A stretch of DNA of 41,014 nucleotides, taken from a bacterium (lineage in GTDB: Bacteria > Pseudomonadota > Alphaproteobacteria > Rhizobiales > JAKIUO01). The position numbers were made by a program, and so were the translations under genes. A model generated the notes under the pieces. It was not told the origin of the DNA, made no database searches, and worked only from the letters and a program-made list of their open reading frames with translations. Position 1 is the first letter of the stretch. The number at the start of each line of letters is the position of its first letter. This document shows, one piece after another, positions 21,287-24,641 of this stretch. The DNA is taken from assembly GCA_024228495.1 (NCBI GenBank), contig JAAETJ010000978.1:1-41014 (forward strand). The letters run 5' to 3'.

Positions 21287-22027
21287 TTAGAGTGATGTTC
21301 GATCTTCCATAATCTCATTGACCGGAGACCCAAACACCTCGGTAAAGGCGTCCTTTAGCGCGCTATCAACTTCTTGGATTGAAACATCAATGCCTAGATC
21401 ATGAAGGCTGGTGACGCCATGCCCGCTGGCCTCACCAGTGATACCGCAAGGCACGATGCCCGAATAATGCTCAAGATCCGGGCAGACATTGAGCGACAGA
21501 CCATGGAAACTCACCCAGCGGCGCAAGCGAATACCAATCGCCGCGATCTTGTCTTCGCATATTCGACTATTGACCGGCGGTTTGTCCGGCCTTGCGACCC
21601 ATACGCCAACCCGTTCGTCGCGGATTTCTCCCACTACGTCAAAATGTTCTAGGGTTTTGATCACCCAGGCCTCCAGAGAGGTTATCAGAGTTCGTACATC
21701 TTTGCCGCGCTGATTGAGATCAAGCATGACGTAACAAATACGCTGGCCGGGTCCATGATAGGTATATTGCCCGCCGCGCCCCACATCAAACACCGGAAAA
21801 CGCTGATGGCTCAAAAGGTCAGTCCACCTGGCACTGGTGCCAGCAGTGTAAAGCGGAGGGTGTTCGAGCAACCAGATCTGTTCGGCTTCTTCTTGCCGGT
21901 GAATGGCCGCCACATAGCGCTCCATGTTTTTGAGCGTGTGCAAATAGTTCATGTCAGCACCAAATTGGCGCCAGTCAACTGCGCGCAATGAGGACTGTTT
22001 TGCAAATTGTTGTAAAGACTTTACCAA
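21287..22027 (-). CDS. lipB: octanoyl-[acyl-carrier-protein]:protein N-octanoyltransferase
   Basis: LipB moves octanoate from acyl carrier protein to lipoyl domains, the first step of lipoic acid synthesis. The family signature [13 protein letters not shown] is at 83-95. The catalytic pair Lys160 ([17 protein letters not shown]) and Cys194 (YSGIVPCGI) is present. The 246-residue length is slightly above the family norm because of an extended N-terminus. The start is TTG 22027; a perfect AAGGAGG (22035-22041 on the minus strand) lies seven bases before it. The gene is divergent from the FliN-like gene, and the 156-bp gap holds both promoters. Confidence 0.94.
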
Positions 22028-22183
22028 ACGCTAACCTCCTTGCGAGATGTTGAACCTACATAGATTGTTTGTGCGCCTTTAGCAAAGGGCCATAGTAAGT
22101 ATTTTTTGATCCGTTTGTATGCAATACCTTAAAAAGGCGTCGCAGTTGCAGCGGTCAGTTGTCACCATAAGCCAGGGTCACCC

Positions 22184-22417
22184 ATGCGCGCTATTGATAA
22201 GATTGAAGTTGAGCTGTCAGTTGTTCTTGGTCGAACCGATATGCCGATCGCGCAGCTGTTGCGGCTGGGGCGCGGGGCTGTCATCATGCTCGATGATAAT
22301 GATAGCGAAGAGGTCGAAATCGTTGTTAATAATGCCCATTTTGCCAAAGGTCAGGTGGTTGTCAAAGATCAGCAAATCTGTGTGGAAGTCCGCGAACAAG
22401 AGCAGATTGATCCCTAG
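22184..22417 (+). CDS. single-domain FliN/SpoA-like protein
   Basis: A 77-residue protein made of one surface-presentation-of-antigens (SpoA/FliN C-terminal) domain: IEVELSVVLGRTDMPIAQLL, LGRGAVIMLDD, EVEIVVNNAHFAKGQVVV and a short acidic end. FliN forms the switch ring of the flagellar motor with FliM and FliG. It resembles the C-terminal half of the fliN product at 30555-30956 (same LGRT, VVL and VNN positions) but lacks its acidic Pro-rich N-terminal region. It is detached from the flagellar cluster and is followed by a terminator. It may be a second switch component or a modulator of the switch; which one is not shown by the sequence. Confidence 0.85.
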   Translation: MRAIDKIEVELSVVLGRTDMPIAQLLRLGRGAVIMLDDNDSEEVEIVVNNAHFAKGQVVVKDQQICVEVREQEQIDP

Positions 22418-22537
22418 CAATTTCTCGATGCGTTATGTTTAAAATCTAATGTCCACGTCCAGGGTTAGATCCTCCGTTTCAGACGGACCGCTACAGCGCA
22501 TAGCGAAGGAGCTATATACACGCACATAAAATGAAAG
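22418..22537 (+). ncRNA. possible small RNA or structured 3' region
   Basis: Between the FliN-like gene and its terminator lie about 120 bp with two small hairpins: TCCGT/ACGGA, which presents a CCTCC next to the loop, and TAGC/GCTA. Together with the terminator this has the shape of a short alphaproteobacterial small RNA carrying an anti-Shine-Dalgarno CCTCC. It may equally be just a structured 3' untranslated region. Confidence 0.25.
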
Positions 22538-22565
22538 ACCGGGTGTTCTTGGTGGCCCGGTTTTT
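22538..22565 (+). terminator. rho-independent terminator after the FliN-like gene
   Basis: ACCGGG (22538-22543) pairs with CCCGGT (22556-22561), followed by a run of five Ts from 22561. Confidence 0.8.
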
Positions 22566-22580
22566 CAATACTCTTTTTTT

Positions 22581-22727
22581 GTAACTCCCAAGCTACCCGG
22601 CAGTTCTCAGTTTCTGGATGAGGCCATCGGGCTTAACCGAGAGGGTGGCAAGGATTCGACCTGTTGCAGATTGTTGTCCTTGTGCCCTTTCTGGCCGCCG
22701 CTCATTATGCCCGACATGCCGCGAAGG
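22581..22727 (-). pseudogene. decayed C-terminal coding fragment with IS-like end
   Basis: On the minus strand an open stretch of about 44 codons ends SATGRILATLSVKPDGLIQK + LRTAG and a stop at 22593-22595. The stop is followed at once by GTAGCTTGGGAGTTAC (22596-22581). This copies the layout of the element at 24183-24419, where a coding fragment also ends with its stop inside a GCTGGGGAGTTA-type end. I infer a relic of the 3' end of a related insertion sequence. No start codon or upstream part is left. The following 22728-23000 stretch holds only palindromes. Confidence 0.4.
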
Positions 22728-22821
22728 CTACCGTTGCGTTTCAATGTTGAGGGTGCGATTGATAAAAACTCCAAGCTATTCCTTGATAGAAAGAGTCTCA
22801 AAATGATTCGTTTTGTGACGA

Positions 22822-23038
22822 ATTACATGTAATATTTCTCGCGAAACGGCACCATTATTGTCAAGTTACAAAAGTAATTTTATCAAACATACGGATTTGC
22901 GCAATTCAATAAAACTAGTGACATTACAACGATTTAAGTTGTAATATTGCGTTGTGAGTGTTGTCTGGTTTTTGGCTGATGTTTCGCCTCTACTCCCCCT
23001 AAAAGTAAACGATGTGTAAATCGTAACTTAGCGATTTA
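22822..23038. promoter_or_regulatory. cluster of palindromes in the leader of the outer-membrane gene
   Basis: Three exact palindromes lie within 220 bp: ATTACATGTAAT (22822-22833), ATTACAAC-N7-GTTGTAAT (22923-22945), and TAAATCG-N8-CGATTTA (23017-23038). The first two share ATTAC/GTAAT arms, as repeated operators for one dimeric regulator would. They lie 190-410 bp upstream of the outer-membrane protein start. The regulator is unknown and no promoter is clear. Confidence 0.45.
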
Positions 23039-23231
23039 TTCACCAATTTTATTTATGATTCTTATCAAGTGGTTCGTATGTGTGGAACTGCTCAGTACGG
23101 CGTATTGGAGCGTTCGGTCTTACTCCTTGTATTGCATTTTTTTAAAGACATGAAGGCAACCAGCAGAAGTCAAAACGGCTTTGGTGATGTAGTTCCAATG
23201 CAAGTTTATGCAATAATAAGGAGAATGTGTG

Positions 23232-24053
23232 ATGGTTATACGGAGTACAATTGCTGGCGTTGCCGGTATTGTGATGATGGTTGCCGCTGGCACCACCCCG
23301 GCTACTGCTCAAGGAGCATGCCTGGCTGGTTGTGACGGTGCAACAAACTGGAATGGTTTTTGGCTCGGTGCAGGTATTGGCGTTAACGCTGATATGATCG
23401 GTCATGAATACAGTACTGCTACTGTAGCTGCCCCTACGGTTGTAACAGGTACTGGCTTTGATGAGAGTCGTGGCGCAGACGGTTTCTTTGGGACAGTTGG
23501 TCTTGGTTATGACTGGCAGGTTCGTGATCGTTTTGTGCTTGGTGCTTTTACCGATTTTGATTTCGGTATCTCAGAACATAAAGAAGCCGATTATTTTGGA
23601 ACAGCCGGACCCTATGGATGGGATATGGAACGTAATAGCACCTGGACGATTGGTGCTCGCGTTGGTCTTTTGACGTCAAACACTTCAATGCTTTATGGTC
23701 TCGTCGGCTATTCACGAACCAGTTATGATATAGCTGTGACGGAAGACGACGGTGCAGGCAATGCTTTCACAATCGGAAGAGATATTGACTTCAGTGGCTT
23801 CGTCGTAGGCGCTGGTCTTGAGCAGAACCTTGGAAACGGGTTCTCTTTGAAAGGCGAATATCGCTACACCAACTATGGTGAAGAAAGCTTTGGCGGTGCC
23901 ATAACTAATTTGGCAGGTACCGATTTGGAAACAGATTCTTTTGATCTGGATAGCCATTCTTTCCGTCTGACACTAGCTTACAAATTTGCGCGTGGCGGAA
24001 ATGTTGTCGAAGAAGTGTCTTACAAAGACATGGCTCCTGCTCCTTACAAATAG
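23232..24053 (+). CDS. outer-membrane beta-barrel protein (Omp25/porin-like)
   Basis: A 273-residue exported protein with a signal peptide of about 26 residues (cleavage after ATAQ). The rest is an eight-stranded type barrel with alternating hydrophobic strands: WNGFWLGAGIGV, FFGTVGLGYDWQV, FVLGAFTDFDFGI, TWTIGARVGLL, SMLYGLVGYSRTSYDIAV, GFVVGAGLEQNLGNGFSLKG + EYRYTNYG. It ends HSFRLTLAYKF plus a short polar tail. The form is that of alphaproteobacterial Omp25/RopB-like surface proteins. The start is ATG 23232, eight bases after AAGGAG (23218-23223). The long palindrome-bearing leader and the very strong terminator suggest a highly expressed, regulated single gene. Confidence 0.85.
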   Translation: MVIRSTIAGVAGIVMMVAAGTTPATAQGACLAGCDGATNWNGFWLGAGIGVNADMIGHEYSTATVAAPTVVTGTGFDESRGADGFFGTVGLGYDWQVRDRFVLGAFTDFDFGISEHKEADYFGTAGPYGWDMERNSTWTIGARVGLLTSNTSMLYGLVGYSRTSYDIAVTEDDGAGNAFTIGRDIDFSGFVVGAGLEQNLGNGFSLKGEYRYTNYGEESFGGAITNLAGTDLETDSFDLDSHSFRLTLAYKFARGGNVVEEVSYKDMAPAPYK

Positions 24054-24145
24054 GTTATTGACAGTTAGATCAACGCAAATCTTTTCAAGCATCTGGTGCA
24101 AGGCACAAGAAACAGAAGCTTAGAGAAAAGAGGGTTAGAAATTAA

Positions 24146-24180
24146 AAAAATGTCCCCCCGGAAACCGGGGGGACATTTTT
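24146..24180 (+). terminator. very strong rho-independent terminator of the outer-membrane gene
   Basis: A perfect 16-bp stem, the GC part TGTCCCCCCGG / CCGGGGGGACA with AAA loop, flanked by A5 and T5 that extend the pairing and supply the T-run. Confidence 0.95.
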
Positions 24181-24182
24181 GC

Positions 24183-24419
24183 TAACTCCCCAGCTTATTT
24201 CCCCGATCCTGCCAAATAGCTTTTTTTCTGAATCAATGGGACATGGCTGATGACATTGAAAAATTGCTTGAAATCATTGCTGTCGGCTTTCGAACTATGA
24301 ATGGTGCCCAAAACTTCGCCACCCTCCGGTCCTTCATATCCTCCGCCAGAAAACAGGGCCTCAATATCCTCGCCGCTCTGCAAAATCCGGAAATGCTGGC
24401 TGTTTAAGCTGGGGAGTTA
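24183..24419. mobile_element. 237-bp element with perfect 15-bp terminal inverted repeats
   Basis: TAACTCCCCAGCTTA (24183-24197) recurs exactly inverted as TAAGCTGGGGAGTTA (24405-24419). Inside, a plus-strand frame from 24243 to a stop at 24405-24407 encodes 54 residues, MADDIEKLLEIIAVGFRTMN then a SSARKQGLNILAALQNP-like end. This reads like the C-terminal end of a transposase, possibly of the IS66 type, with its stop inside the right repeat. I infer an internally deleted, non-autonomous insertion sequence. No 8-bp target duplication is visible. Its right end interrupts another transposase fragment (24418-24525). The minus-strand frame 24195-24383 is a shadow. Confidence 0.6.
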
Positions 24420-24525
24420 AAGCCGGTGCAAATCTGCGGCTTCGCAAACACCTCTCCCCAACAACTTCCTTAAATTTTTCCTCGACAGAAAGGTAGAGTG
24501 AAATAAGATAAATCTGCGATTCCAT
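24418..24525 (-). pseudogene. transposase N-terminal fragment interrupted by the 237-bp element
   Basis: On the minus strand, ATG 24525 follows GGAGGGTTACCCC. It opens a frame reading MESQIYLISLYLSVEEKFKE and ending LRSRRFAPAL. This resembles the first 35-40 residues of DDE transposases of the IS982/IS4 kind, where FAPALTDSEV normally follows. The text breaks off exactly at the inverted repeat of the 24183-24419 element, which points to insertion into this gene, the remainder being lost. The 24526-24641 stretch holds no gene. Confidence 0.5.
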
Positions 24526-24641
24526 GGGGTAACCCTCCATGTTGGATAATGGGCGGTTGTATAACAACCTTACGAAATCACGTTACGTTCCCTATGTGAA
24601 CTGAAAAAAGTTGAGACTGGCGTAAGCTTCATTGGTTGCCC

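Follow-up and report, generated by a model that had tools for sequence, protein, structure and literature searches.

A probable single-copy, internally deleted remnant of an ISBst12-type IS66 insertion sequence beside a porin-like gene block

Short DNA segments with perfect inverted ends raise the question of whether they still move or are what is left of a larger insertion sequence. In the window analyzed here (a 41,014-bp stretch of alphaproteobacterial DNA, contig JAAETJ010000978.1), a sequence-only reading had described a non-autonomous 237-bp element with exact 15-bp inverted ends at 24183-24419, nested in another transposase and perhaps belonging to a family of small elements mobilised in trans. 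Our preferred interpretation, which we regard as likely, is that this element is the single-copy remnant of an ISBst12-type IS66 insertion sequence that has lost its middle, lies at a rearrangement junction, and is probably immobile.

Ends and extent of the element

The left (24183-24197, + strand) and right (24405-24419, - strand) terminal inverted repeats both read TAACTCCCCAGCTTA and are exact inverses of each other with zero mismatches, as had been read. No other exact 15-bp inverted pair separated by 50-600 bp is present in the window. Among 200 dinucleotide-preserving shuffles, nine contained at least one such pair; taken alone, the repeat pair is only mildly improbable and not decisive. 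The 237-bp element is nevertheless certain, because both of its halves are homologous to other copies in its own genome.

The extent of 237 bp held for the inverted repeats and probably fell one base short at each side for the whole element. In this genome, seven other ends match the element over at least 50 bases, and all of them read GTAACTCCCCAGC, with an outer G before the repeat. Two further end-sequence matches, each with one mismatch, stand outside this count and have A (C133) and G (C326) before the repeat. The window element lacks the outer G at both ends; C precedes the left repeat and T, read inward on the other strand, precedes the right repeat. Judged by these other copies, the true termini probably lie one base further out, at 24182-24420 (239 bp, + strand). 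We take G as the terminal base because 8-base direct repeats bound the 174-bp elements of G012, a genome of the same order described below, at that position. For the ISBst12 group, ends are expected to start with GTAAC or GTGAC; both window ends read TAACTCCCCAGC, without the outer G found in the seven compared ends.

No 8-bp target duplication is present, whether the boundaries are set at 24182-24420 (flanks CATTTTTG and AGCCGGTG) or at 24183-24419 (flanks ATTTTTGC and AAGCCGGT). This absence bars membership of the element among intact IS66/ISBst12 elements, not descent from one. The duplication can be lost from a remnant that lies at a rearrangement junction, and such a position would explain the absence here.

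Two-part origin of the element

In a blast search of the 237 bases against their own genome (5.10 Mb in 1254 contigs), we found 35 matches at E <= 10: the window copy itself at full length (1-237) and 34 part-length matches. The left half matches C123 (element positions 1-101, 96%) and C390 (1-98, 94%), and the right half matches C803, C150, and C195 (102-237, 95-96%), with partial matches in C214 (129-237, 99%) and C1200 (188-237, 98%). The C123 match ends at 101 and those of C803, C150, and C195 begin at 102, which places a deletion junction at 24283-24284 of the window, with no bases common at the join.

The left end in C123 continues as a transposase-like N-terminal frame (MADDIEKLLEINAVQGEQIGALQALVTELE). 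At C803, the right half is preceded by ..VPFTNNLAERDLRIMKVRQKISG, and the C-terminus encoded there matches PF03050 (DDE_Tnp_IS66; E 2.7e-9, 37.3 bits against a cut-off of 23.1). No IS66 match was obtained in Pfam for the C123 frame; that it encodes the N-terminus of this transposase is suggested by its location next to the end and by a by-eye likeness to the N-termini of relatives. Because the two halves match separate left-end and right-end copies, with C803 continuing into an IS66 C-terminus, we interpret the window element as an IS66-type element without its middle. These homologies support the earlier proposals of a non-autonomous derivative of a transposase-bearing element and of an internal frame derived from a transposase.

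That frame (24243-24407, + strand) opens with an ATG at 24243 and, as noted from the sequence, stops inside the right repeat (TAA, 24405-24407). Compared with the C123 and C803 translations, it is a 54-aa in-frame fusion of about 14 N-terminal and 40 C-terminal transposase residues. The 54-aa ORF has no Pfam match at E <= 1, and, read as 70 aa, the frame scored weakly against two unrelated families (E 0.13 and 0.17), in neither case reaching the cut-off. In plasmid records, the 54-aa query found nine matches, each below 60% identity and some annotated as IS66, and the element DNA found none. A functional 54-aa protein is not favored, given the lack of a Pfam match and the fact that the frame is kept after one in three internal deletions anyway; the ORF is a warning against calling such a stub a gene.

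A full-length parent was not found in the own assembly, which is fragmented: none of its eight PF03050 matches is an intact transposase with such ends. The long intact frames in C273 and C728 have no such ends in the loci inspected, and the other matches are partial or broken. Some copies lie at contig ends, and an unassembled parent is possible. The same genome holds two other two-ended, internally deleted IS66-type derivatives, both with GTAACTCCCAAGC ends: one of 324 bp (L076:238-561, in C281), with flanking octamers alike by eye at five of eight bases, and one of 903 bp (L026:1153-2055, in C1079), with octamers alike at six of eight. Another IS66 transposase match (L023, C1011:19337-19927) has four in-frame stops, all TAG, and is probably decayed. 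Among 150 relatives searched with the element DNA, with at most five candidates scored per genome, three matched: the own genome, G012 (79% over the right half), and G108 (29 bases, E 8e-4); none of the four congeners gave a match.

The layout of the parent is taken from relatives found by protein search, for which 46 of 80 loci were examined (those left out were mostly repeat copies from the same genomes), 10 were translated, and duplications were read in four. Ends like those of the window element occur in all four; exact 8-bp duplications are present at L123 (1550 bp) and L124 (1440 bp), and none at L127 (1533 bp) and L159 (1552 bp). In L123, L127, and L159, the 1.53-1.55 kb between the ends is taken up by one frame of 482-490 aa, which is the single-ORF arrangement of the ISBst12 group as seen in relatives. 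The longest frame in L124 has only 406 aa, and that copy may not be whole. A further copy, annotated as an IS66 family transposase on plasmid p192_1 of Bradyrhizobium sp. 192, has CCGAACCG on both sides. These five share the GTAACT ends of the window element's parent type, and their transposases are similar at the C-terminus (57-70% over the matched part in the four loci, 57.5% on the plasmid). They differ from the window element in their length of about 1.44-1.55 kb and long transposase frame; exact 8-bp duplications are present in three of the five and absent in two.

A characterized counterpart is ISDge4, which its authors place in the IS66 family, ISBst12 group. Its termini are GTGACTACTCAGCA and GTAACTGCTCAGCA, and it has a single transposase ORF and a direct repeat of 8 bp (PMC12898284). 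Its ends are of the same kind as those of the window element, and its 8-bp repeat and single ORF are like those of the relatives above. ISDge4 is, however, complete, with a 449-aa transposase, and its transposition was observed, whereas the window element has lost almost all of the gene and lacks a duplication. The ends, the single ORF, and the 8-bp repeats in these relatives and in ISDge4 lead us to regard the parent as an IS66 element of the ISBst12 type. Such a parent would have measured 1.44-1.55 kb, as in the relatives, with one transposase gene and ends starting GTAACT. The deletion would have removed everything between codon 14 and the final 40 codons of the gene, so that both ends and the in-frame 54-aa stub remained.

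Flanking blocks and the probable rearrangement site

Homology breaks at both edges of the element. On the left lies a block (22994-24181) that is kept elsewhere in congeners and contains an outer-membrane beta-barrel (porin-like) gene (23229-24053, + strand; PF13505, E 4.2e-14). The gene is followed by a terminator-like hairpin (24146-24180, + strand; 16-bp perfect inverted repeat) that is kept in G001, G002, and G004. Homology to the block stops at 24181, one base before the element, in these three congeners, and a 71% match extends to 24183 in G003. In all four congeners, the porin block is on contigs other than those with the right-hand block; the sequence that follows it, read in G001, G002, and G004, is alike in the first two and different in G004. 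The region beyond the porin block thus appears variable in any case, and the loss of congener homology past the terminator may have an ordinary cause. All four congeners retain the right-hand block from about position 24640 onward, and no empty site for the element was available among them.

Between the element and the right-hand block, we found the 5' part of an IS982-like insertion sequence (24421-24623, - strand), cut off at the element's right edge. Positions 24417-24623 match C636 at 95%, and parts match C216 (82%) and C504 (84%). The transposase frame continues in C636 (RSRGFAPALSDVEHITIELFGEYQGHGNDKA) and C216 and breaks at the element's edge in the window, so the claim that the right edge adjoins a broken second transposase was borne out. 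Nesting inside another transposase was rejected; only the right flank is transposase-derived, and the left flank is the end of the porin-gene block. The fragment has no Pfam match. Its plasmid relatives comprise 34 records, each below 60% identity; among the 20 listed, most are annotated as IS982 family, and the rest are called transposase or lack an annotation. TTAAAGCC occurs both at the element's edge and in the C636 sequence, so the outer base may have gone in a microhomology join.

The similar end noticed at 22581-22596 was confirmed. It forms the right end of another, related remnant of IS66 type (22581-22785, - strand), which has the end GTAACTCCCAAGC on one side only. Positions 22580-22655 (96%) and 22678-22737 (85%) match the C1079 element, 22738-22785 are matched by none, and congener homology resumes at 22786-22787. 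This remnant sits between the porin block and a left block (21314-22431) that is on other contigs in congeners. Two segments between the fliN-like gene and this remnant recur elsewhere: 22445-22516 in the own genome (C300 and C531) and 22514-22579 in the congeners G001 and G002.

A miniature family with the same ends and the status of the window element

In G012 (which we take to be the MAG Alphaproteobacteria bacterium Dive100_bin2.65, of the same order), we found a 174-bp, AT-rich element (30% GC) with the ends GTAACTCCCCAGCTT (e.g., L064:198-371, L059-L063, and L202-L210). Nine complete copies were recovered, of which eight have exact 8-bp duplications and the ninth has four of eight bases alike; many more copies lie at contig ends. 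This copy number is a lower bound, as blast scored 40 of 161 candidates, all 40 of which matched and nine at whole length. Allowing one mismatch, we counted 147 occurrences of the end pattern in about 3.0 Mb, compared with two of the reversed control. Among 397 genomes of the order, the 174-bp element was found in G012 only (at most two candidates scored per genome), and a scan for short pairs of ends also returned G012 only. Pairs at the spacing of the window element occurred in none of the 397; the pattern had the terminal G and so could not match the window element itself. One truncated 174-bp copy (L065, G012:C120:20471-20702) is followed directly by an IS66-type right end, as if an IS66-type element had inserted into the miniature.

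The terminal repeat TAACTCCCCAGCTT of the G012 element is identical to that of the window element. In contrast to the latter, the G012 element is amplified, has 8-bp duplications, and carries the outer G; internally, the two have only chance matches of 7-8 bases. Compared with the IS66-type right end of its own genome, it likewise has only the terminal 15 bases in common. Miniature inverted-repeat elements (MITEs) that arise by internal deletion are classed as type I and those that keep only the ends as type II (PMC6382973). The G012 element is thus of the ends-only kind (type II), and the window element is of the internal-deletion kind (type I). That elements with these ends form a family mobilised in trans, as the sequence-only reading suggested, is well supported in G012. 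For the window copy the suggestion is unsupported because no target duplication and no second copy of the junction were found; the outer bases are changed as well, and no intact transposase with such ends was detected in its genome.

The window element does resemble a type I MITE in being short (239 bp), in its perfect 15-bp terminal repeats, and in having a 54-aa stub in place of a functional transposase. It could have moved here as a unit through a transposase acting in trans and later lost its duplication and outermost bases, and elements with the same 15-bp ends did move and multiply in G012. We consider this unlikely for the window copy: only one of 35 matches in the own genome spans the full length, none of the four congeners gave a match (at most five candidates scored per genome), the target duplication that marks movement as a unit is missing, the outer base is changed at both ends, and the G012 element has only the end repeats in common with it. 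Alternatively, the 239 bp may never have been one element with a middle, if a rearrangement fused separate left-end and right-end remnants by chance. Such remnants are common in this genome, the site has a rearrangement junction on both sides, and the outer flanks do not match. Yet the ends are in the correct order and orientation and the reading frame is kept; an internal deletion would be expected to give this arrangement, whereas a fusion would give it only sometimes, which leaves chance fusion quite improbable. A chimeric join within repeats during assembly is very improbable; although the assembly has 1254 contigs and an estimated contamination of 4.52%, with several copies at contig ends and both edges coinciding with synteny breaks, the halves are 94-99% rather than 100% identical to other copies, and the 101/102 join has no common bases to mislead an assembler.

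We therefore return to the remnant of an ISBst12-type IS66 element as the likely explanation. Against it stand the presence of both ends in perfect form, as in a still-mobile miniature element, and the absence of any complete parent copy from the own assembly. The site would be one at which the porin block, located elsewhere in congeners, ends at the left edge and the truncated IS982-like element begins at the right edge; in the order of events that we infer, the deletion would have taken place here rather than before arrival. The element is probably immobile, because it has no functional transposase and its outermost base is changed at both ends. A 250-bp ISCca4 remnant in Cardinium differs in belonging to the IS982 family, and the Cardinium genome also has an amplified MITE and intact parents, in the part of PMC9769881 that deals with them.

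The window element is a real but ordinary object of little significance in itself; it accounts for the two IS66-type remnants and the IS982-like fragment that surround the porin-like gene block. In the relevant parts of PMC12898284, PMC9769881, PMC3281130, PMC3189936, and PMC6382973, MITEs from several IS families are described and none from IS66. Among the open-licence papers listed in literature searches, we found no IS66-derived MITE described in a title or start of abstract, which is weak evidence of absence. It is conceivable, though doubtful, that the window element is an early-stage ISBst12/IS66-type MITE with ends still recognizable by a transposase in trans, and that the amplified G012 element, which has 8-bp duplications and shares the 14-15 bp ends, is the finished product; if so, the two would show the birth and amplification of IS66-type MITEs. 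The more useful by-product is the G012 family with ISBst12-type ends, which makes trans mobilisation by an IS66-family transposase testable.
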